Shown piece after piece: positions 10,363 to 30,912 of a stretch of 38,448 nt of DNA. The stretch spans positions 1 to 38,448 of the IMG/VR virus record IMGVR_UViG_3300046171_000174; one strand, given 5' to 3'. The DNA comes from a virus. How positions within the stretch are numbered: the first letter of the stretch is position 1; each line of letters begins with the position of its first letter. The translations under genes and the position numbers were made by a program. The notes beneath the pieces are model-generated. The model did not search any database. It was given only the letters and a program-made list of their open reading frames with translations, and was not told the origin of the DNA.

Positions 10363-10590
10363 ATGCAACCACGCTGGATTAAGTTAAAAAGTGCCGCAAA
10401 ATACTGTGATATGGACGTTGCTACATTTGACAAATTAGTGAGGCCGTATATAGATGAAATCCCTTTAGGGCGCGGAACAAGAGTAGATGCGCGGCAAATT
10501 GATGGCGTGATGATTGGCAAGCGAAAAAAACAAACAGAAATTAAACCGCTAATGAATGGCTTTTTATTAGAATGTCAAAACGCAAACTGA
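10363..10590 (+). CDS. Excisionase-like HTH protein
   Basis: 75 residues. WIKLKSAAKYCDMDVATFDKLVRPYIDEIPLGRGTRVDARQID has the layout of MerR/AlpA-type small DNA-binding proteins (HTH then wing GRGTRVD) that often serve as recombination directionality factors. It overlaps the integrase start by 19 nt. It would bind the attP arms and favour excision. Assignment as Xis is from fold and position, not from strong similarity. Confidence 0.6.
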   Translation: MQPRWIKLKSAAKYCDMDVATFDKLVRPYIDEIPLGRGTRVDARQIDGVMIGKRKKQTEIKPLMNGFLLECQNAN

Positions 10591-11663
10591 AAAATATTCA
10601 GCGAGTTAGAAAAGGCGCAACATTCCATTTTTACTACAGAAACCAAAAAACAGGTTTCAGAAAACGTTTGCCTGACGAACTCGATCCAGCTTTTATTTTG
10701 GCTTACGGCCAAGCGAAATTAGAGGACGAAACAAAAGCCTCAAAAAGACCTGATGAAATTTACACATATGGCGATTTAGTAAACGCATTTAAAGCAAGCC
10801 ATCATTTTCAAAATCTAGCGGAACTTACAAAAAAAAGTTACACGCTGTATCTGGAAAACATTTCATACCGACAAACATCGAAAGCTATGCTTAAAACGCC
10901 ATTAGCGCAAATAGACGGTCATGGTTTTGAAGCGGTAAGAGACATTATATTGGCGCATGGAACAAACGGAGAAAAAACAAACTGTCATCGTTCTGCAAAT
11001 TTTTTCCTAACCGTCATCAAACGCATGTTTCGGGTAATGGCAAAATACATAGATTACAACCCATCGTATCATCCACGCGACATACTGCCCATTAAACATA
11101 CAACTAATAGTAACCGCCCTTGGACAACAAAAGAATTTGAAGTGTTTATGCGAGAAGCACACCCAACAATAGCATTAGGGATTGCCATCGGTGGCTATTT
11201 AGCGTTGCGTATTTCCGATATGGTAAAATTATCGTGGTCAGCTAGAAATTATGGTGAGTTTTTGATTGGGAAAACATCACAAGAGCATCCAATCACAGAG
11301 CCACTTGAATTAAAGGAAATTTTAGATCCGTTAGAACAAATAAAACAAAGTCCTATTATAGTTGTAACACAAGGCCGAAAAGACGGTGTGCCAAAACCAT
11401 ACACAACAGACGGATTTAGAACGCAATTTACCCGAACACGGCAAAAACTTTTAAAACAGGGAAAAGTCGGGGAGGGTTTAACATTTCATGGTTTACGACA
11501 TTTTATAATGACCAGAGGATTGGAAGCTGGATGCTCAGATGCACAACTTAGGGCAATCGGCGGTCATATATCGGAAAACATGATTAGGCTTTATACGAAA
11601 AAAGCCCAAATGAAACAGCATCAAAAAGAAGCTATTTCGATGATTTTTAAGAACACAAAATGA
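10572..11663 (+). CDS. int: Tyrosine-type site-specific integrase
   Basis: 363 residues. The N-terminal arm-binding/SAM-like part runs to about 180 and the catalytic domain from about 185. Active-site residues seen: R213 (ALRISDM), K234 (GKTSQ), H306-x-x-R309 (HGLRH), H332 (GGHISENM) and Y341 as nucleophile. It recombines attP (11747-11791, 84 nt downstream) with the host tRNA-Thr gene. It ends before TTAGTAAAC repeats that are likely arm sites. Confidence 0.92.
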   Translation: MSKRKLKNIQRVRKGATFHFYYRNQKTGFRKRLPDELDPAFILAYGQAKLEDETKASKRPDEIYTYGDLVNAFKASHHFQNLAELTKKSYTLYLENISYRQTSKAMLKTPLAQIDGHGFEAVRDIILAHGTNGEKTNCHRSANFFLTVIKRMFRVMAKYIDYNPSYHPRDILPIKHTTNSNRPWTTKEFEVFMREAHPTIALGIAIGGYLALRISDMVKLSWSARNYGEFLIGKTSQEHPITEPLELKEILDPLEQIKQSPIIVVTQGRKDGVPKPYTTDGFRTQFTRTRQKLLKQGKVGEGLTFHGLRHFIMTRGLEAGCSDAQLRAIGGHISENMIRLYTKKAQMKQHQKEAISMIFKNTK

Positions 11664-11668
11664 ACAGT

Positions 11669-11834
11669 TTAGTAAACTTTTTCCTAAAAATTAGTAAACC
11701 AAACTGCTTATTTGCTTTAAAAATCATGCTAAGTCATTGAAAAGACTGGTGCCGGCTGGGGGACTCGAACTCCCGACCTGATGATTACAAATTATGCGCT
11801 CATTCAATATTATCAATAACTTAGTTAGTAAAAC
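11669..11834. repeat. Direct repeats flanking attP, probable integrase arm sites
   Basis: TTAGTAAAC occurs at 11669-11677 and 11691-11699 (22 bp apart) on one side of the attP core, and TTAGTAAAAC at 11825-11834 on the other. Such short direct repeats on both arms are typical binding sites for the N-terminal domain of tyrosine integrases. AGTTTAGTAAACT followed by TTTTT at 11667 could also end integrase transcription. Confidence 0.5.
11747..11791 (-). other. attP: attP core: 3' part of tRNA-Thr(UGU)
   Basis: On the minus strand the 45 bases run from an anticodon loop TTTGTAA (anticodon TGT) through variable region, T-arm with GTTCGAGT, acceptor GCCGGC and encoded ACCA. The 5' half of the tRNA is absent, and the bases upstream of the loop do not pair, so it is not a tRNA gene. 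A partial tRNA just after an integrase marks the crossover region. It predicts integration into a host tRNA-Thr(UGU) gene whose 3' end the phage restores. One T-stem pair (A52-C62) is mismatched. Confidence 0.85.
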
Positions 11835-11848
11835 GCCTATTTTTGGCC

Positions 11849-11995
11849 CTATTTAGACTGATTTAGATCGGTTTCACTGTCAACAGGGATATGGCCCTTG
11901 CAACGGCATATTTTAGGATCACAGTTGCATTCTACACAATTATCGCAATCACACTCACAACGATCTGTATACCTAGCGGTAATTTCTTTTTTCAT
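11849..11995 (-). CDS. Cysteine-rich metallothionein-like peptide
   Basis: 48 residues: MKKEITARYTDR then eight cysteines at 13, 15, 17, 20, 23, 25, 30 and 32, with acidic residues between and His35 after. The CxC and CxxC spacing is that of soft-metal (Zn, Cd, Cu) binding peptides of the metallothionein kind, not of a zinc finger (too many Cys in 20 residues). The start overlaps the upstream stop as TAATG (11997-11993), so it is translationally coupled to the basic small protein. It is the last gene of the late operon, next to attP. It is too short for routine gene callers. Confidence 0.65.
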   Translation of the reverse strand: MKKEITARYTDRCECDCDNCVECNCDPKICRCKGHIPVDSETDLNQSK

Positions 11996-12162
11996 TATGC
12001 TGTCGCTTTTCGTTTACGTTTAGCTTTGTTCTTTTTACTGTTGGGAAAACCAGCTTGCATTTCTTTATATGCTTTTGCGCTTATTGTTGAATTTTTTCTA
12101 CTTCTCGATTTGTCTTTATTCTGCCTTGCTCGAATGTTTGCATATAAACCACGCCCTGCCAT
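11995..12162 (-). CDS. Small basic phage protein (MAGRGLYANI type)
   Basis: 55 residues, MAGRGLYANIRARQNKDKSR..., ending in a lysine/arginine-rich tail (KKNKAKRKRKATA). Proteins beginning MAxKGLYANIHAK are common as short highly basic open frames in podoviruses. They may bind DNA or be minor virion components, but the role is not known. An SD-like AAAGGAAAC lies upstream. It is coupled to the cysteine-rich gene. Confidence 0.65.
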   Translation of the reverse strand: MAGRGLYANIRARQNKDKSRSRKNSTISAKAYKEMQAGFPNSKKNKAKRKRKATA

Positions 12163-12209: not shown

Positions 12210-12374
12210 TCATTTTTTTTCTCTATCGTTCCAAAGCGAAAATAGCACTTTTACTTTTTCTTCTAATACGTCTAAGCGATTAAAGGCTTTAGCAAACAAC
12301 ACAATGGCCGCTGTTACAGCAACCAACACAGGCCAGATGGCATTAAAAATATCGAGCAATGTTGCGTCAGCCAT
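12210..12374 (-). CDS. Small membrane protein of the lysis cassette
   Basis: 54 residues. One transmembrane helix (about residues 8-27, IFNAIWPVLVAVTAAIVLFA) followed by a helical coiled-coil-like tail (RLDVLEEKVKVLF). It starts 1 nt after the lysozyme stop. Position and topology suggest a spanin-like or holin-modulating protein. No precise family assigned. Confidence 0.55.
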   Translation of the reverse strand: MADATLLDIFNAIWPVLVAVTAAIVLFAKAFNRLDVLEEKVKVLFSLWNDREKK

Positions 12375-12375
12375 C

Positions 12376-12804
12376 TTATCCCTCACGAATTAACTCAGCG
12401 TTTCTGTTGGCCCTGTTGGTTACTTGCTTTGCGTAATTACTGTCTAGCAACTCTATTGCGCTATTTTCGTAATCGCCGCCCTCTAAATACTGTAAACATT
12501 TTTTAAACGCTTTTAATTTTGGCATCCCTAAATTAAACGCTAAATCGGCCAATGCTATTCTTCTGTTTTCGCTTAAATCGTTCCACCAAGGAAAAGCATC
12601 GTCCAATTCTGAAATAACAATATTTATATCGGTTTCTAACATCGTTAAGGCTTCAGCTTTTGTAATGCCTCTGCTTTCGACATTTCGGCCAATTCCTAAA
12701 GTTTTGTAGCCAGCGGGGCAATCATACAAAAAAAGTTCACAACCTTCCTCTTGTTCTAAACGCTGAGATAATTTTTCGATAAACCCGCTTGTTATATCTA
12801 TCAT
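12376..12804 (-). CDS. Endolysin, GH24 lysozyme (T4-type muramidase)
   Basis: 142 residues. The catalytic triad of the family is visible: E20 in EEGCELFLYD, D28, and T35 in AGYKTLGIG. It cleaves the glycan backbone of peptidoglycan. The segment NRRIALADLAFNLGMPKLKAFKKCL is the usual C-terminal lobe. No signal sequence is seen, so export depends on the holin encoded directly upstream (overlap 4 nt). Confidence 0.88.
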   Translation of the reverse strand: MIDITSGFIEKLSQRLEQEEGCELFLYDCPAGYKTLGIGRNVESRGITKAEALTMLETDINIVISELDDAFPWWNDLSENRRIALADLAFNLGMPKLKAFKKCLQYLEGGDYENSAIELLDSNYAKQVTNRANRNAELIREG

Positions 12805-13202
12805 TTAGAAATCCCGATTTTTTTTTCGTAGGTTCTGAGCGAACCCAAACCTAACATTCCTAAAAGCACAGGCATCATTTCAGTCATGTCTAAAGCAGGG
12901 AGCGTTACCAAATAATCTAATTGGCCTAAAACAAAAATAGCGATTGGCTGAATGACATAATTATATGCCATCGCAAATCCCATCGTCCACCCAAGGAAAG
13001 GCCGCCACCCAGCAATAAAAACATTTCTGCTTTGCGCTTCTGCTTTGTTAATTTCAAGCTGGCCTTTTGCTAACTCTTGGGCATGACGTTCAGCCATTGT
13101 GCTAATTTCATGCGCCAATTGGTTTTTCTGGTCTTTGTCTTCAATAAATTTATCAAGCAGTCCTGTTACTGGCTGAACTAATGAGCCTAACAAATTAATC
13201 AC
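12801..13202 (-). CDS. Holin of the GTA_holin_3TM type
   Basis: 133 residues. AGWRPFLGWTMGFAMAYNYVIQPI, then TEMMPVLLGMLGLGSLRTYEK is the typical sequence of 3TM holins found in alphaproteobacterial phages and gene transfer agents. The N-terminal half is an amphipathic helical region (residues 1-60, HAQELAKGQLEINKAEAQ). It would form the inner-membrane lesion for the lysozyme. Overlaps both neighbours by 4 nt. Confidence 0.8.
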   Translation of the reverse strand: MINLLGSLVQPVTGLLDKFIEDKDQKNQLAHEISTMAERHAQELAKGQLEINKAEAQSRNVFIAGWRPFLGWTMGFAMAYNYVIQPIAIFVLGQLDYLVTLPALDMTEMMPVLLGMLGLGSLRTYEKKIGISK

Positions 13203-16921: not shown

Positions 16922-18460
16922 CTAATCCTTCTTTAAATTAACTGTCCAACCAGACGTATCCGCTTTAGGGGCTGGCGTTGAAGCATTAGGTTCAACAGGA
17001 CTAATCCTTTTTTCAATCGCTCCATAATTTTGCTCAAACGCTTTGTATTTATCAGATACAACTTTTTCTAATTGATCTAATTGAGAAAGCATAACTTGCG
17101 TTCCATCATAACCATTAAACGGAACAGCGTCTTGGAAGTTTAATGATTTACTATCAGGTGGCGTTACAAGTCTTTCTAGCAATGCTAAGTCAGGCCCAGC
17201 TAAAACCCCAAGTTCTAAAAGGTCTTTCAGTTTCATTAAAAGAAACGTATGCGCTTGCGTCATTTTTTCAGCTTCTGGCCCTAACATTTGCGGCCCATAT
17301 TTTGTAACAAGTTTTCTGTAGTCACCTGTCAAACTTCGCACTTCGTTAACCATTTGCCCAGCTTTTTGCATCTGTATTTGATCTTGTTTTGTTTGGACAA
17401 GCGGCGTTTCCACTACCGAAATTGTACCGCCTTTAGGCTTTTGTGGCTGGTTATTCGATGGTGGTGCGCCAGCACTAGAGTCAATGATAGGCATATTACT
17501 ATTAACGTTAGGATTAGTATTAGGCATATTACTATTAGCGTTAGGCGGCTCAATAACTGCGCGGCGTTTTTCTTGCATAGATCGTGGTAATGGTTGAAAA
17601 AATTGGTCTGATTGTGGTGCTTCTGTATACAGCTTACCATCTTGAAAAAACGTTCTTTGTTGCTGGCTTACAACTTGTGCATTACCGTAAGCAGTTACAA
17701 CGCCTCTACCATATTTTTCAATTAAGTTTGGCATAGACATACCGCTTTGAATATCTGCGCTTATCTCGCCTTTTTGAATATCTGAAATTTTGTCTGGTGG
17801 TGCAGACGCTTGCAAATTCGGATTATTATTTATTTGGGTAGGCGTAGCATATACCTCTTGTTTAGTTTTACTATTATAAGCCTTAACTGGTTTTTCTGGT
17901 TTTGGTGTAGACGCTGGCCCTTGGGCTATTATCTTTCCTGTTGCGTCTGTAACAACATCATCTTTACCTAATTTGTATTCTTTAGGCGGCTGTAGCGCAA
18001 ATTTCATAGCGATTTTATAAGCAGTGTCAGTATCACCAGATTTGACCGCCTCTTTAAAAATAGCCTTTGCCTGATCTGGCATATTAAGCTGGCTCAATCG
18101 ACTAGCTTTAGGCGTAGCTGGCGCAGAAGGGCCACCCATCACGCCACTGTCTTGCATCATTCCTTCCATGCCATCAGCTTGTACTTGTGGCACAGTAGCG
18201 TTAAACGCTTCGCCCTCGCCCATATCATCCTCTTGCACAAGACTCTGCACAAGTTTTGCCCTATTTGCTTTTTGACGGCTTTCCTTGTTCAATTTGTTGT
18301 ATTCCATTGCGTTTTTGCGAAATGATGCCGCCGCATTTTGAAAACTGTTTCTAGGAGCCGTTGGAGCCGCCGATTGTAACTGCCGCCCCTGCGCTTGTAT
18401 TGGCCTTATTTGCAAACCCTGAGTAGCTTGACGCTGTGGCATATTTACACGAACAGCCAT
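16922..18460 (-). CDS. Putative internal virion protein
   Basis: 512 residues. Helical N-terminus (SFRKNAMEYNKLNKESRQKANRAK), low-complexity middle with short repeats around residues 296-318 (NSNMPNTNPNVNSNMP), and a helical C-terminal part with ELGVLAGPDLALLERLVTPPDS, a segment type seen in phage ejection proteins. Starts 2 nt after the upstream stop and ends 6 nt before the 739-residue protein. The two are probably made and packaged together. Confidence 0.5.
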   Translation of the reverse strand: MAVRVNMPQRQATQGLQIRPIQAQGRQLQSAAPTAPRNSFQNAAASFRKNAMEYNKLNKESRQKANRAKLVQSLVQEDDMGEGEAFNATVPQVQADGMEGMMQDSGVMGGPSAPATPKASRLSQLNMPDQAKAIFKEAVKSGDTDTAYKIAMKFALQPPKEYKLGKDDVVTDATGKIIAQGPASTPKPEKPVKAYNSKTKQEVYATPTQINNNPNLQASAPPDKISDIQKGEISADIQSGMSMPNLIEKYGRGVVTAYGNAQVVSQQQRTFFQDGKLYTEAPQSDQFFQPLPRSMQEKRRAVIEPPNANSNMPNTNPNVNSNMPIIDSSAGAPPSNNQPQKPKGGTISVVETPLVQTKQDQIQMQKAGQMVNEVRSLTGDYRKLVTKYGPQMLGPEAEKMTQAHTFLLMKLKDLLELGVLAGPDLALLERLVTPPDSKSLNFQDAVPFNGYDGTQVMLSQLDQLEKVVSDKYKAFEQNYGAIEKRISPVEPNASTPAPKADTSGWTVNLKKD

Positions 18461-18461
18461 A

Positions 18462-19616
18462 TCAGATCACCTTATCCATAAAGAATTTAATAATGCGTTT
18501 AATAGCTGGCTTGTCTTTAATGAAATCAGCAACACGCTCACCATATTGACAATAAGTGTCATGCAACCAAGTTGGGGCTTTTGTTTCTAGCCATTCTCTA
18601 AACAGCAACCATCTATCATCTTGATAGACTTCTCTAGCTACCCAGCATTTTTTTAATGCCGCCGCCCCCATGCCTAAATCACCAGCACCAGACATTTTAC
18701 CAGCCGTGTTGCGTGGGGTTTTGCCTATAGTCGTTGTGCCAGTTGGTACGCCACTAGCAAGGCTTGCGCCGTAGCCTAGCATCTCCAGTGGATATTGAAA
18801 TTCTTTAATAAAATCGTCATACGCTAGATCAAGGCTTTGTTGCCCCATATTTTGTTGTGCGCCGCCTATGTTTAACAAGTTCTGCACATCGTTATTTTGC
18901 AATTCAGTTTGCGTAGATGCCGCACTTGGCAAGACACTTGCGCCTTGTAATTGAAGCTGTGCGCCAAGCCCTGTCATGTCGTTATACTGGCTGGCATCCT
19001 GTGCGCCGAATGTATTTGCCGTGTCAAAACCCTGCTGTAAAATTTTAGCTACGTCACTACCATAGGTTCTCATTGCCGCTTCGTTTGTCAGCGCAGAAGC
19101 TACGCCCTGACCACTGCCCCCAAACGCACCAGCCGCCGTAGCAAGTGCATTGTTTGATAATTGTGCTTGGTTTAAGGCGTTAGTGAACTGGTCTGTGTAT
19201 GCGTCTAAAACGGCCCCCTGATAGGGGTTGAAATAGTTTTCTGCTAAGTCAGCACCCTCAACAACATTCATTGTTATTGGGTCTAACGGCGGCGGCGCAA
19301 ATGGAATTGTTTCTGCCGCTGGCACTGGATCAGGATCATAAACAGGCTGTGGTGCGGCAGGGGTATAATCAACAACTGGTGGTGGTGGCGTATTATTAAT
19401 TAATGGTGCTTGCCGTCCTTCGCCAAACCCATGTATCAAATAATGATCGAGGCCAGTTATTTGGCCATCTCCATCTGCGTCAGCCGTAGATGCTAACGAA
19501 AATGCGCTGTTAGGATCAGCAACGGCACTTGCAACATCGCCGTACAAATCTAGGTAGGCTTGCTCGTCAAAAGAATCTATTAAATTTTGACGGTTAAAAT
19601 TGTCTTCTATTGCCAT
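18462..19616 (-). CDS. Tail/internal structural protein, second half of a split gene, with EF-hand-like insert
   Basis: 384 residues. Residues 1-70 hold YLDLYGDVASAV and ADADGDGQITGLDHYLIHGFGEGR, a dockerin/EF-hand-like calcium loop. Residues 80-115 are proline-rich. From about 125, NPYQGAVLDAYTDQF ... ATAAGAFGGSGQGVASALTNEA matches a phage structural family. The C-terminus (KKCWVAREVY ... RWLLFREWL) is a widespread virion-protein tail. In related phages the start of this family is the sequence found in the adjacent 19617-19976 gene. Confidence 0.6.
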   Translation of the reverse strand: MAIEDNFNRQNLIDSFDEQAYLDLYGDVASAVADPNSAFSLASTADADGDGQITGLDHYLIHGFGEGRQAPLINNTPPPPVVDYTPAAPQPVYDPDPVPAAETIPFAPPPLDPITMNVVEGADLAENYFNPYQGAVLDAYTDQFTNALNQAQLSNNALATAAGAFGGSGQGVASALTNEAAMRTYGSDVAKILQQGFDTANTFGAQDASQYNDMTGLGAQLQLQGASVLPSAASTQTELQNNDVQNLLNIGGAQQNMGQQSLDLAYDDFIKEFQYPLEMLGYGASLASGVPTGTTTIGKTPRNTAGKMSGAGDLGMGAAALKKCWVAREVYQDDRWLLFREWLETKAPTWLHDTYCQYGERVADFIKDKPAIKRIIKFFMDKVI

Positions 19617-24205: not shown

Positions 24206-27200
24206 CTAAACTACTCTGACTTTTAATGTTGCCGCGTTGACGGCTGTTATCCTAACTTTGTTTAGTGCTGGGACATCGTAATTATAATCGGTTCCCAGAA
24301 TCGCGCCTTGGTTGGCTACAGCGGCATCGTAGTTGATGCTTACGCCATCACTGCTTGGTATGCCTGATCCACTCGACAAGTTTAAAATTATCGCCAAATC
24401 TAGATTATTGCTAAGAGGGAAATGATTTGCGTCAGATACAGCTTCTAACTGGATTTTATCCATTCTATTTTGCGCTGTTCCCATCGCTTCTTGGATTGTC
24501 GCTAGTTCATTGTTGGTTGCCCCAGCCGTCCAAGTTTCAGAACCGTAAGTTGCGTTGGAATTATATTTCCAAGTACCGCTATCATTTTTAACAATACTTC
24601 TAACGCCAGATGTATTATGTGCAATTTTCCAAGTGGTTCTATCGTCAGTTGACACGGCATAATTTACTGTGCCAGACCCAGCCGTTTCATTAGCTGTCAT
24701 TGAGTTAATATCAGTCCAATAAGTGCTGTCGATTGAGGTTGTCGTGTGTGCAGCATGGTAGCCAGATGGTGCGGATAAAGTTGCAGTGTCGTAGCGATAA
24801 ATATAATCATGTGCAGTATCTATGATGTTAAGCTGCGAACCAGTATCGTTGAATGCTAATCCTCGACCCGAACTAGCATTTGTTGCGGTGTATTGCCCAG
24901 TGTATCCGACAGAGGAAAAAGAAAAGGCTGTTGAGGTGTCATAGATTTTTACAGCATTTGCTGAATCGCTGTAGATAAAAAATCTAGTACCGTCTGGCTT
25001 CATAGTTATAGCAGTAGCATCAATCGAGCCAACACTTGTTTCCGACACCATTGCTATCGTGGAACTGGGATCATAACCAGTGGAAAGGCTTAAATGATAG
25101 ACTCGATTTCCCGTAGTTCCAGTGACATACATGTTTGTGCCATCTGGGCTAAAACAAATTCCAGTAGGTGTGCTTTCGCCATCAGTGCTATTCATGTTTC
25201 GCACCAGTGCAAAATTAGAACAGGTCGTAATGTCAAAAGGCGTTGTTAATTCGTATGTGTCAATTCGACCGCCTTGCGTTTGCGTCAAAAATATTCGTGT
25301 GCCATCGGGGGTAATTATAAAATCCGATCCCTGTGAAAAATTGCTGGAAGTCGAAAAACTATTAACCAATGACCTTGTTGTGACATCAAAAGGCGTTGAT
25401 AGATTAAACTCATATATTTTTTGTTGGCTTGAACACATGATATAAAATTTTGTGCCATTATTACCAAAACATAACCCTTGTGGATTACTAATAGAATTGC
25501 CCAAAGCACTATTGTCAGTGTAGGAAAAAACGCCGTTAGCGTACGCATTCGCAAATGTATGACTGAGTTCAAGATCAGTGGCAACTGTGTCGAAATTAGT
25601 ACCGTACATTTCCCAAGAGCCAGAAGCTACTTGGTTGTAGTTCGATGGTGCAGTTGTAGTTGAAAATGTTCCGCTTGTTGCCGTTAAAATAAATTTACCG
25701 TTGTTGGCCTCGATTGTTTTGGCAACATCAGCCGCCGCGAAAGATCCAGAACCAAGACTGAGCGTTAGCGGTAAATCATACTGATAAACAATGTTTCCGC
25801 TTTCGCCAAGCATATACATCTTTCCACCACCCGAACCGAAAGCAACGTCTGTGGCATTACCATTCTGGCTTGAAACATCTAAATTTGTATTGGGATAACT
25901 TATTGTAGACAGATCAAAGCCAGTGCTTAAATTAAACAGAAAAATTTTATCTTGGCCTTGACCAGCCATAAACAATTTTGTGCCATCAGCGTTGAAAGTG
26001 ATTCCTTTGGGAGTGCTTTCATATGGACCCACAGAGAAACTCACTGAGGCATAACTTGCCGTAGATAGATCAAATCCAGTTGATAAAGTATACTGATATA
26101 TCGTGTCGTTATTTCCCCCAACGACGAACATTTTTGTTCCGTCATTGTTAAAGGCTAGGCCGTGAGGACTGCTATCTTGTGACGCGACAGAAAAGGTATT
26201 ATTGCTGTAACTTGCTGTACCAACATCAAACGCTGTCGAAAGGTTATATTGAAAAATAGCATTCCATGAATCACCCGCAATAAACATTCGAGTTCCGTCA
26301 GGACTAAACCGTACTGATTGGGGAACAGTTTCTTGGGACGATACCGAAAACACTTTTTCATAACTTGCCGTTGCTATATCCCAAGCAGTTGACAACGCAT
26401 ATTGATTTACGTCATCGCCACTATCACCAATGACATACATTTTTGTGCCATCGGCATTGAACGTCAGCCCTTGAACACCAAGCTCTTGAGTATTGACGGC
26501 AAAACTTTTTTCGTAAGATGCGTTAACAAGATCATACCCAACAAAGTCTAAAGTTGTAGCTGGCGCAGAATTGTATCTAGTGTAATTTGGTGCTGACGAA
26601 TTGACGTTCCATTGGTTGTTGGTGATGCCAACTTGGGGAACTTCTTTCGTTACCGCAACACTTGGAGATAGCGCATTTGCTGACAGATTTATTGTCGTTT
26701 GTTGCCCCGCTGAAAATGCTTGTGTAAGAGTGCCAAGCTCTGTCGAGCCTGTTGCTATTGCAACTCCATTCACAGTTGGAGAGCCAGTTAATGCTGGCGA
26801 GGCCAATGGAGCTTTAGTAGCCAAATCAGTATTGGTCGCTTTAGCGGCAAGTAGCGCATCTGCCGCGCTTCTACTGTAAGTATCTGAAACATTGAATGCT
26901 CCAAAAGTGTGTATTGTGACCTCGTCATTTAAAGCCGCGCCACTTGCTAAAGTTACTGACGTTCCATTCGTAGCCGTGTAATCGGTAGTTTTGAGCAATA
27001 CACCGTTTAAAAATATGCTAATCGCCGCACCGCCAGCCGTTTGATCATAAGCAATCGTGCCTGTTGCTGGAAATACTGTTTGGTTCGCAGTTGCTACATA
27101 CTGGTATATTTCGCGTAGCCCATTAACCGCCGACCCAGCATCTTCCCAAGCACCTGACGTTGCATTGTATACTCGCAATTTATCGGCTGAAGTTACCCAC

Positions 27201-28579
27201 GCCAACATCCCATCTGCTAGTGAGGATGAACCATCACCGCCAGTTGTCGGGTTGTTCGTGCTGATCTGGTAGGTGTTTCCAAAGCTATTTACTGAGCTAA
27301 TATTTGAGGAAACATTATTGACGGACGCTATGTTAGTTCCAACATTGTTGACGTTCGTTATTGCGCCAGCCGTAGTGTTGATATTGCTTTTTAATGGGTC
27401 AGTATTTACCGCCGTTACGGAACTAGCTATTGCATTTACGCCAGTAATCGCGCTGGATATACCTGATAGCGTATTCATGTTTGTGACGTTTTGGGATGTA
27501 CCCAATACGTTCATGTCATTAACGACATCGGCTGTACCAAGCGTATTCATATCAGCCACTACATCAGCCGTAGCCAATGTATTCATGTCCGCAACAATAT
27601 CGGCGGTAGCCAAAGTATTCATGTCTGCTATTACGTCAGCATTTGCCAAAGTATTCATGTCAGAAACGATGTCTGCCGTTGCCAGCGTATTCATGTCACT
27701 TATTACATCTGCCACTGCCAACGTATTCATGTCAGATATTATATCTGGCACAGCTAACGTTGCCATATCTGTTAGCACATCTGTTTCAGCTAATGCCGCC
27801 ATATCTGCCAAAACATCAGTAACCGCCAGCGCATTCATATCTGCGACAATATCAGGCGTTGCTAACGTATTGAGATCGGAAACCACATCAGGCGTTGCCA
27901 ACGTATTTATGTCGGAAATAACGTCTGGAACAGCAAGCGTATTCATATCACTAATAACGTCTGGCACTGCTAACAAAGCCATATCATTAATTACATCTGC
28001 CACTGCAAGCAACGCCATATCATCGCGCACTGCTTGCGGAGAAAGCGCATTCATAGAAGTTATAACCGCAGATGCCGCAAGGTTTGGAATATTGCTATTA
28101 GCTATCTGCGCGGCTATTGACGCTATGTTCCCATTTGTCACCTGTGGAGCTACTGTGGCAACGTCTGCGCCTGTCGCTAGGTCAATGCCGTATAAAACAG
28201 AGCCAGTTTGCCAGATCAAAGCTGTGGTGATATTTGCCGCCACTGATACGGTTGCAGAACCGTTGCTAAACGTAATGCCGTATGTGCCGCCAAGCGCATT
28301 ATGAATAATGTAAAAACGCTCTGTCGATGGCAACGTTACTGTTGGCGTTCCAGACAAGCTATTATTTGTAAATCTTAAAACCCTGTTGCGTGACTGGTTG
28401 CTGACATACTGTGTTGTTGAAAGCGTTACGTCACCACTCAGCGCGATTGTCTCAACGCCAGCTATGCCCTCATCTATCAGGTTGAGCGTATCGCTGTTTA
28501 ATTCTGATCCCCAAGTGTCTTGAAAATCGCCAGTGCCGATAAGCCGTAGCCCTAATCTATCTGATGGTGTTGAAGCCAT
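24206..28579 (-). CDS. Giant tail spike/fibre with repeats and beta-propeller units
   Basis: 1457 residues, the largest gene. Residues 1-140 are a tail-attachment domain (WGSELNSDTLNLIDEG). About 187-371 are fifteen 12-residue repeats of the type SDMNTLATADVI. About 400-435 hold NVNN/SVN repeats. About 440-570 form a domain found in phage fibres (YQYVATANQTVFPATG ... IFLNGVLL). Ten propeller blades with the F-x-DGTKMYVIG core follow in two groups of five (690-935 and 1032-1255), and a C-terminal domain. Likely main adhesin binding host surface glycans or protein. Confidence 0.75.
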   Translation of the reverse strand: MASTPSDRLGLRLIGTGDFQDTWGSELNSDTLNLIDEGIAGVETIALSGDVTLSTTQYVSNQSRNRVLRFTNNSLSGTPTVTLPSTERFYIIHNALGGTYGITFSNGSATVSVAANITTALIWQTGSVLYGIDLATGADVATVAPQVTNGNIASIAAQIANSNIPNLAASAVITSMNALSPQAVRDDMALLAVADVINDMALLAVPDVISDMNTLAVPDVISDINTLATPDVVSDLNTLATPDIVADMNALAVTDVLADMAALAETDVLTDMATLAVPDIISDMNTLAVADVISDMNTLATADIVSDMNTLANADVIADMNTLATADIVADMNTLATADVVADMNTLGTADVVNDMNVLGTSQNVTNMNTLSGISSAITGVNAIASSVTAVNTDPLKSNINTTAGAITNVNNVGTNIASVNNVSSNISSVNSFGNTYQISTNNPTTGGDGSSSLADGMLAWVTSADKLRVYNATSGAWEDAGSAVNGLREIYQYVATANQTVFPATGTIAYDQTAGGAAISIFLNGVLLKTTDYTATNGTSVTLASGAALNDEVTIHTFGAFNVSDTYSRSAADALLAAKATNTDLATKAPLASPALTGSPTVNGVAIATGSTELGTLTQAFSAGQQTTINLSANALSPSVAVTKEVPQVGITNNQWNVNSSAPNYTRYNSAPATTLDFVGYDLVNASYEKSFAVNTQELGVQGLTFNADGTKMYVIGDSGDDVNQYALSTAWDIATASYEKVFSVSSQETVPQSVRFSPDGTRMFIAGDSWNAIFQYNLSTAFDVGTASYSNNTFSVASQDSSPHGLAFNNDGTKMFVVGGNNDTIYQYTLSTGFDLSTASYASVSFSVGPYESTPKGITFNADGTKLFMAGQGQDKIFLFNLSTGFDLSTISYPNTNLDVSSQNGNATDVAFGSGGGKMYMLGESGNIVYQYDLPLTLSLGSGSFAAADVAKTIEANNGKFILTATSGTFSTTTAPSNYNQVASGSWEMYGTNFDTVATDLELSHTFANAYANGVFSYTDNSALGNSISNPQGLCFGNNGTKFYIMCSSQQKIYEFNLSTPFDVTTRSLVNSFSTSSNFSQGSDFIITPDGTRIFLTQTQGGRIDTYELTTPFDITTCSNFALVRNMNSTDGESTPTGICFSPDGTNMYVTGTTGNRVYHLSLSTGYDPSSTIAMVSETSVGSIDATAITMKPDGTRFFIYSDSANAVKIYDTSTAFSFSSVGYTGQYTATNASSGRGLAFNDTGSQLNIIDTAHDYIYRYDTATLSAPSGYHAAHTTTSIDSTYWTDINSMTANETAGSGTVNYAVSTDDRTTWKIAHNTSGVRSIVKNDSGTWKYNSNATYGSETWTAGATNNELATIQEAMGTAQNRMDKIQLEAVSDANHFPLSNNLDLAIILNLSSGSGIPSSDGVSINYDAAVANQGAILGTDYNYDVPALNKVRITAVNAATLKVRVV
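27467..28021 (-). repeat. Fifteen 36-bp coding repeats in the spike gene
   Basis: Imperfect tandem repeats of 12 codons (consensus S/A-D-M-N-T-L-A-x-x-D-V-I), visible in DNA as recurring GTATTCATATC-like segments on the plus strand. Their similarity suggests recent duplication and possible variation in copy number, which would change spike length. Confidence 0.85.
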
Positions 28580-28949: not shown

Positions 28950-29579
28950 TCATGTTACCACAACTGAAACATCTAAATCCCAACGCACCTCATCGTCAGC
29001 GACATGCAATGTTTCTATCTCGCCCTCTGCCAATCGTAACCAATACAGCTTATCGCTATCCTGTTTTAAAAATTCATTTGCCATCGCCAAGCAAATACAC
29101 CGCAATAGGCGTGGGCTTTGGTTCGTCAAAAAGTTGGTTGTATTAGACGGCCCCAATGCTGTCGGCTGTGCATAGTATCGCCAGCGATATGGAAACGTTG
29201 CGTTAGGCGCAATTGGAAAATAGGCATTTGTGCTATCAACATAAAACGTTGTTGGCTTGCCTTGGCTTACATTGCCGCTTGAGTCATAGGATCGCGCCGC
29301 CTCTATCGCATCCAGTGTACTGTGCTTAATTTCAACTTTCTCTGTGCCACTGTAATAGAATGAGCGTGATGCTACAAAGTCGCTAGGCACTGCTATATAG
29401 TCTTGCCCAACTACCATATTGCCAGTTGCAATTGACAGCATTTCGCGCACACGCAATCTGCGAAAAATCCAATCCTCTGCTTCACTCAAAACAGTCGTTG
29501 CAGAAAAGGAGTCGTTGTTCACCCAATTTTGTATTGAGCCATCCGTACTTTTACTTGCTACTAGATTTGTGTAATCCAT
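28950..29579 (-). CDS. Head-to-tail adaptor protein (P22 gp4/T7 gp11-like)
   Basis: 209 residues. MDYTNLVASKSTDGSIQNWVNND, LSEAEDWIFRRLRVREML, QDYIAVPSDFVASRSFYYSG and the C-terminal CICLAMANEFLKQDSDKLYWLRLAEGEI follow the plan of podovirus adaptor proteins that form a ring under the portal. It starts inside the end of the glycosyltransferase gene (29-nt overlap). Confidence 0.7.
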   Translation of the reverse strand: MDYTNLVASKSTDGSIQNWVNNDSFSATTVLSEAEDWIFRRLRVREMLSIATGNMVVGQDYIAVPSDFVASRSFYYSGTEKVEIKHSTLDAIEAARSYDSSGNVSQGKPTTFYVDSTNAYFPIAPNATFPYRWRYYAQPTALGPSNTTNFLTNQSPRLLRCICLAMANEFLKQDSDKLYWLRLAEGEIETLHVADDEVRWDLDVSVVVT

Positions 29580-30912
29580 TTTTTATAGCCTTAAATATTG
29601 TTTCTGGCTCAATAACCGCATTGCAAAGTGATGCGCCTGTTTGTTCGTCCTTGGCACAATGCTCAAAAGAAAAATGTAATCTATGGCAAGGAAAGCATGG
29701 TGCTTTTTCTGGCAGTATTTCCTTTGCATTAATCCAGTGTTTCGTTAGCTGTTCTTTACCGCTATGGCTGACCAACACAACCTTATGGTTTTTGCTTCTG
29801 CCAACAGCGTTTAGAAGCCCTGTTTCTGGCCCTACAACAACGTCTGCCGTATCTGCTATTGCCATGCTCCCACGCATCGGCAACGTACCGCATTGAGCCG
29901 CTATACGGCTTACATCGCCATATATTTCCTGTGCTTCTGCAATCGCGCTATCTTGCAATGGGATTGCCTCATCATCGCCCATTAGCATGATATATGCGTC
30001 TGTCTCTGCTAACAGCTTTGCCAGCACCTTGCCCATATGCGGATACCATTTATGGACGGCAGAACCAGCCACAGCCCAGCAGATTAACGGCGCATCAAAC
30101 CTTTGCCGTATTTCTTTGGCTTTCGCCCTTTCAGCACTTGTTGCATAGAATAAGGATCGAGAAAAATTATGTTTAACGCCAGCAACATCATGTGTCCGCT
30201 CCATATAATTTGCATTAAACAATTTATGTCTTGCGCTCTGAGGCCAGAAAAACTTTGCGCTATCAGACGATAATAATAATTCGCCTTCTATGCTTTCGCT
30301 TAAATTAATTACCTTGTCGTATTCTGTTGCGATTGCATTCCAGTATTCCAGCAAATCATCGTTATCAACCTGATCTCGATCTTGCACCATCATCTCATCA
30401 ACATGAGGGTTAGTTGCATTTATAATGTCCTGTGGCGTTTGGCAGTTTAACGTAATGTGATGCCCTTGCTCTTTCAGCAACGGAAACACACCAGCGCAAA
30501 TAATCTGATCGCCCCACGCACCATATCGAATGACCAAACAGGAATTTTTAGGCTTTGGCTTTTCAGCCAGTTGTTTGTTTTTGCTCATCACCAATAAGCC
30601 GTATCGTTTTTTTGCAACAACCATGTCAGGCCAGAGATGTTTTGCGTTTTGCTCTGCTTCGTTTTCGTCTGAATTTATAAAAACAATATTGCCGTCAGCT
30701 TTAACGACTCTTTCCCATTCGGCTGGTGAATTATTAGCTGGTATTTCTTCGCCGCATATAATTAGAGCATCTAATGCGCCGTCTTTTATAATGCTAACAT
30801 CACCTGTTTTTTTCCAGTGATTAAACAGCGCGGCATCACCGCCAATCTGCATCACTTTACCGCAAGTAAATGGCACAGAAAACCATTTTGGATTTTGTAT
30901 TTTTTTTTGCAT
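29551..30912 (-). CDS. Glycosyltransferase family 9-like protein with methyltransferase-like N-terminus
   Basis: 453 residues. The C-terminal about 330 residues (CLVIRYGAWGDQIICAGVFPLLKEQG ... ADTADVVVGPETGLLNAVGR ... CFPCHRLHFSFEHC) are the two-lobed GT9/ADP-heptosyltransferase fold. The N-terminal about 105 (ALDALIICGEEIP ... EWERVVKADGNIVFIN) resemble the end of a class I SAM methyltransferase but lack the SAM-binding half. Fusions of this kind occur in phages. It may modify LPS, capsid or tail glycans. It is the first minus-strand gene left of the divergent cassette. Confidence 0.72.
   Translation of the reverse strand: MQKKIQNPKWFSVPFTCGKVMQIGGDAALFNHWKKTGDVSIIKDGALDALIICGEEIPANNSPAEWERVVKADGNIVFINSDENEAEQNAKHLWPDMVVAKKRYGLLVMSKNKQLAEKPKPKNSCLVIRYGAWGDQIICAGVFPLLKEQGHHITLNCQTPQDIINATNPHVDEMMVQDRDQVDNDDLLEYWNAIATEYDKVINLSESIEGELLLSSDSAKFFWPQSARHKLFNANYMERTHDVAGVKHNFSRSLFYATSAERAKAKEIRQRFDAPLICWAVAGSAVHKWYPHMGKVLAKLLAETDAYIMLMGDDEAIPLQDSAIAEAQEIYGDVSRIAAQCGTLPMRGSMAIADTADVVVGPETGLLNAVGRSKNHKVVLVSHSGKEQLTKHWINAKEILPEKAPCFPCHRLHFSFEHCAKDEQTGASLCNAVIEPETIFKAIKNGLHKSSSK

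Follow-up and report, generated by a model that had tools for sequence, protein, structure and literature searches.

The window, meaning the whole stretch of 38,448 nucleotides analysed here (IMG/VR virus record IMGVR_UViG_3300046171_000174), carries a minus-strand late/lysis operon whose final gene encodes a very small cysteine-rich peptide. Upstream of this gene the operon comprises a 55-aa protein, a membrane-like protein, an endolysin and a holin, followed by virion genes, portal and terminase; the portal shares about 35% identity with its counterpart in Vibrio phage 431E46.1. The features around the gene are:

10572-11663, plus strand: tyrosine integrase (PF00589), convergent with the late operon
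about 11747-11793, minus strand: partial tRNA 3' end, tRNA-Thr(UGU)-like, a putative attP core recognised by eye
11849-11995, minus strand: Cys-rich peptide gene, 48 aa, with the core RCECDCDNCVECNCDPKICRCKGH at residues 12-35, assigned from the frame, its relatives and selection
11891-11959, minus strand: conserved core DNA, from Cys13 to His35
11995-12162, minus strand: small basic protein of 55 aa, directly upstream of the Cys-rich gene (PHROG 25774, unknown function)
12210-12386, minus strand: small membrane-like protein of 58 aa with a GTG start, part of the lysis cassette; a similar gene lies upstream in the relative L130
12376-12804, minus strand: endolysin (Phage_lysozyme PF00959, E 1.8e-13)
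12801-13202, minus strand: holin with three transmembrane segments (GTA_holin_3TM PF11351, E 1.6e-21)

No complete tRNA is reported by ARAGORN at the attP candidate, and the genes adjoining the Cys-rich gene include no recognisable metal-transport gene and no recognisable regulator that responds to metal. Four large late genes of the window (24206-28579, 16922-18460, 18462-19616 and 29551-30912) have no PHROG match at E<=0.001.

The frame encodes MKKEITARYTDRCECDCDNCVECNCDPKICRCKGHIPVDSETDLNQSK, in which Cys occupies positions 13, 15, 17, 20, 23, 25, 30 and 32 (eight Cys in 20 residues) and is followed by His35. Its start codon overlaps the stop of the 11995-12162 gene in a TAATG. The frame with its cysteines and His, the coupling to the upstream gene and the location at the end of the late operon had all been described in a first-pass annotation and are borne out here. 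The peptide is acidic (5.5 kDa, pI 5.1), and Cys makes up 8 of its 48 residues (17%) and 35% of the core, arranged in CxC/CxxC motifs (CECDCDNCVECNCDPKICRC). Aromatic residues (F/W/Y) are absent from the core, and a single Tyr occurs in the whole peptide. Low mass with high Cys content, and CxC/CxxC motifs with few or no aromatics, are both part of the general definition of a metallothionein, and the window peptide shows both.

Other viral contigs encode close relatives of the peptide, 77-80% identical to it and set in different flanking DNA. A scan of IMG/VR phage sequences with the pattern CDxCxxCxCxPxxCxC returned 106 stretches in its complete output, which were then sorted by frame; the 117 loci fetched reduce to 86 distinct loci and 77 distinct proteins, and the family profile added two more divergent relatives (L369 and L379). 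Members range from about 30 to 110 aa and share the consensus CxCDSC[IV]EC[GN]C[DN]Px[VI]C[RK]CxCH. The window core is a variant of it (CECDCDNCVECNCDPKICRCKGH), its subgroup being marked by an additional Cys on the N-terminal side, by Ser replaced with Asn and by KGH where the consensus has xCH, and it conforms to the broader core definition CxCD[SN]CxECxC[DN]PxxCxC..H (CDCDNCVECNCDPKICRCKGH). The local family profile scores the window at 39 bits (E 9e-14 among controls), a value to be read with the window sequence being within the profile's source set. Likewise, the invariance of six Cys, the Asp and the Pro is partly built in, because the search pattern imposed them. Residues outside the pattern are nevertheless conserved among the 53 distinct cores: His in 53/53, Glu in 52/53, Val/Ile in 53/53, Arg/Lys in 52/53 and the eighth Cys in 49/53. 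Several positions other than Cys (D, S/N, E, P, V/I, R/K) are thus kept almost as strictly as the cysteines. One relative with the Cys-rich gene, here of 36 aa, is IMGVR_UViG_2788500220_000001 (L337); its name belongs to another number series (27885...) than those of the metagenome contigs, so that it may come from a single-organism genome and could point to a host.

Could so short a frame be a chance opening with no product? Measured against the Cys frequency of 0.6% in 12 large genes, the binomial chance of the Cys run is about 2e-13. A comparable run, with eight Cys in a 20-aa stretch of some frame, does however appear in 5 of 300 versions of the window shuffled by dinucleotide, and two other window frames also contain at least 7 Cys in 20 residues. 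Composition by itself is therefore only suggestive and not decisive. The pattern of substitution is more telling. Between the window core and that of its nearest distinct relative (L130) there are 7 synonymous and 2 non-synonymous changes; among the cores mean pN is 0.18 and mean pS 0.78, a ratio that is approximate because pS is near saturation. Variation at third codon positions is 3-4 times that at first and second positions, and both TGC and TGT are used at every Cys of the core. The core is under strong purifying selection. With the frame and its residues kept in about 100 contigs and a clear signature of synonymous change, the chance-frame explanation is already refuted and can be set aside for practical purposes; conservation in other phages with synonymous change proves the gene real. 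The conditions of no conservation and no selection, named in the first-pass annotation as counting against its claim, fail: the core is present in 86 distinct loci, and the pN and pS values speak for selection.

A search by profile methods, which it had also proposed, did not place the peptide in a known family. Among 35 members, no metallothionein, zinc or Fe-S model of Pfam, NCBIfam or PHROGs was matched. PF02069 (Metallothio_Pro) gave nothing for these members at E<=1, nor for the window peptide and two relatives at E<=10, and PF00131 (Metallothio, animal) was not matched either. Positive controls were recovered: SmtA (4e-21) and PmtA (6e-13) by PF02069, and human MT2 (8e-19) by PF00131. 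Since the controls match and the members do not, the family does not belong to PF02069 or PF00131, although it may still work alike. Searches of the PDB by sequence and by family profile returned nothing convincing. The 95-aa member L133 alone comes near a Pfam model, its residues 37-89 (the Cys-rich core plus tail) matching DUF3648 at 19.8 bits (E 0.001), below the threshold of 20.6. The window peptide (residues 14-33) has a weak, non-significant match to PHROG 27696 (unknown function, E 0.23), which probably reflects Cys composition only.

The family is phage-restricted in the data searched, where sampling and low-complexity masking leave gaps. In GenBank phages, neither tblastn, run with the peptide and with three of the longer relatives, nor blastn, run with the gene, gave any match, in searches where low-complexity masking may hide the core; TerL-syntenic regions were therefore read directly. 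In bacterial genomes, a related-locus search and one pattern scan gave chance matches only, and the family pattern was absent from 385 and 369 genomes of two classes. A Cys-only pattern run over viral contigs returned mostly noise. No phage metallothionein of this type was found in the literature, mostly open papers. The result is a conserved family, present in roughly a hundred sequences of uncultivated marine phages, that appears to be undescribed, judging by the libraries and open papers searched.

Across the family the gene keeps company with late genes. Of the 86 loci, 64 have a lysozyme and 67 have a lysozyme, a holin or both; the two terminase genes, small and large, and the portal gene often come next. 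One large subgroup is of HMO-2011 type, as shown by a TerL (L304) that has 80% identity to the TerL encoded by Puniceispirillum phage HMO-2011. The TerL-syntenic regions of HMO-2011, of the Roseobacter CRP isolates CRP-345, CRP-2 and CRP-212, and of ctYwJ313 contain no such Cys motif, so the gene is accessory in HMO-2011-type phages. In the first-pass annotation the proximity of attP had been offered as a functional clue, and this has not survived. Two relatives (L130 and L279) lack an integrase and retain the Cys-rich gene as the last of the lysis operon, with the next conserved gene following at once, and a third (L132) has a different tRNA-like sequence at the position next to it. Adjacency to attP is thus incidental, and the Cys-rich gene belongs to the late/lysis operon. 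A reading of it as an attachment-site moron was rejected, as the gene occurs without an integrase.

The neighbouring holin, lysozyme and late genes would fit a disulfide-rich peptide of the virion or cell envelope, acting in lysis or as capsid or tail cement. This is very improbable: charged residues stand at the start of the window member, in which neither a signal nor a membrane segment is evident, an invariant His and CxC spacing suit metal more than disulfides, and the position of the gene relative to the lysis genes varies between phages. A second neighbourhood points elsewhere. In 16 of the 86 loci a Fe-S_biosyn protein (IscA/ErpA-like, PF01521, E 9e-14) is encoded less than 1 kb from the Cys-rich gene (L262, L263, L275, L280, L282, L285, L286, L306, L308, L309, L313, L335, L344, L352, L353 and L356), and HMO-2011-type viral genomes have been reported with erpA and iscU (PMC9038755). 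The peptide could accordingly bind iron, a cluster or sulfur and work with the phage carrier, with which it would share thiol-based metal chemistry. We regard this Fe-S accessory role as unlikely. The carriers are unrelated in sequence, 70 of the 86 loci have no such gene nearby, none was recognised adjacent in the window, and the Cys spacing is unlike the classical CxxCxxC ferredoxin motifs. The 16 loci, counted among phages that carry the Cys-rich gene, are only a lead.

By far the likeliest chemistry, judging from the arrangement of eight thiols in CxC/CxxC motifs and an invariant His, would be metal-thiolate binding. In the reducing host cytoplasm the eight Cys and the His would probably take up about 2-3 ions, with Zn2+ as the likeliest metal and Cu+ as a possible one, in a cluster that may organise an otherwise unfolded peptide. 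This number of ions is plausible because a characterised Pseudomonas metallothionein forms Zn3Cys9His and Cd4Cys9His clusters (PMC7387436). AlphaFold2, run with 35 sequences, predicts no regular or confident fold (pLDDT 59, one helical turn), as would be expected of a model in which the metal organises the chain.

What surrounds the core is highly variable. In many members the core is flanked on both sides by long segments of unrelated sequence, the window member having little beyond the core. The N- and C-termini include short tails, a YYRRYY-type N-terminus, GGCGxESI segments and extra CxC pairs; the longer relatives have Tyr-rich N-terminal segments, and other tails are of the IFKNKG, RDFE or EFWRNR types. 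In L270 and its kin (L310, L342, L269, L322 and L349), the core interrupts a small protein, whose two halves are FDSTGSL...WIKVK and KEKYLKDKEFWRNR. The same small protein is uninterrupted in others (L266, L298 and L319), where a separate Cys-rich gene follows, and in L267 and L315 the coding stretch is divided into two overlapping frames. The core thus behaves as a module, because it has been inserted into a small protein that other phages keep intact.

It is possible that the metal serves only to fold the peptide into a small and defined docking surface for a partner, be it a host protein, a phage enzyme or a virion part, so that buffering is beside the point. The strictly conserved non-ligand residues in CD[SN]C.EC.C[DN]P.[VI]C[RK]C, the fusion of the core to varied segments and its insertion into a protein intact in L266 would all suit such a structural zinc mini-domain. 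Yet eight Cys and a His in about 20 residues are denser than single-zinc folds require, no similar solved structure was found by sequence, the AlphaFold2 models lack a confident fold, and the window member consists of hardly more than the core. This role is conceivable and we hold it tentatively, as the less probable one.

The reading that we prefer, at about even chances of being right, is a metallothionein-like mini-domain that would hold or hand over metal late in infection. Late production would be expected given the place of the gene in the late/lysis operon and its start-stop coupling to the small basic protein, and the peptide may hold or donate metal, or guard the thiol/metal balance, during virion assembly. 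Metal binding itself, the identity and stoichiometry of the metal, the timing, and a holding or donating role are what we infer from the gene and its setting. The main doubt about a buffer is that several non-Cys residues are conserved beyond what a simple buffer would need and that the core is used inside other proteins; together, strict non-Cys conservation and insertion into the small protein suggest something beyond a loose metal sponge. In the first-pass term "metallothionein-like", then, the small, conserved Cys-rich gene with its CxC/CxxC motifs and invariant His holds good, but a match to a known metallothionein family does not; its proposals that the peptide could buffer zinc or copper in the host or supply metal to virions are hypotheses.

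Likeness to the bacterial metallothioneins SmtA, BmtA and PmtA (PF02069) lies in the very small size, the Cys-rich sequence with CxC/CxxC spacing and His and, likely, a multi-metal thiolate cluster in the cytoplasm. In contrast to SmtA and PmtA, the phage peptide is without the C-terminal Cys/His part of those control sequences, and unlike all three its gene lies in a late operon and its core is fused to or inserted into other proteins. Eukaryotic metallothioneins (PF00131) share the dense CxC motifs and a core without aromatics, as do the fungal Cu-thioneins. The phage core differs from both in its conserved Asp, Glu, Pro, Val/Ile and His, and the phage peptide has no sequence match to PF00131. 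With the IscA/ErpA-type carriers of HMO-2011-type phages it shares the genomic surroundings in the 16 loci, yet it is mostly found without a PF01521 gene.

More broadly, the family could be a new phage-restricted Cys8His metal-binding domain, a mobile late-gene cassette of marine phages (HMO-2011-type and temperate relatives) that would either manage host metal in virion production or dock metal-folded adaptors on host proteins; we give this wider proposal about even chances. If true, it would represent a new type of part for handling metal in viruses, modular and conserved, with no Pfam, NCBIfam or PHROG match. Ocean microbes are shaped by metal limitation, and the search for phage metal-handling genes has mostly been directed at enzymes or carriers that can be recognised as such. 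Because its members are small, they are easy to express and to titrate with metal, and clear mutants can be designed from the conserved residues.

Other Cys-rich proteins were seen in the same material. Two 61-kb viral contigs (L362:4219-4266 and L370:1400-1447) encode a protein that starts near CRNCSCAPLPCxCGCH and shares the spacing CxxCxCxPxxCxCxCH, outside the marine family. A DnaJ-like zinc motif, MCPKCKGKGCSHCGGTGYHN, occurs in a small protein near the lysis/terminase region of Roseobacter phage CRP-2 (L387, about 2400-2700). A basic phage protein of 151 aa (L205:4535-4990 and L241:1553-2008) has a Cys-rich N-terminus, CSCGCDSCGNCECDNC, and is perhaps an unrelated second Cys-rich type.
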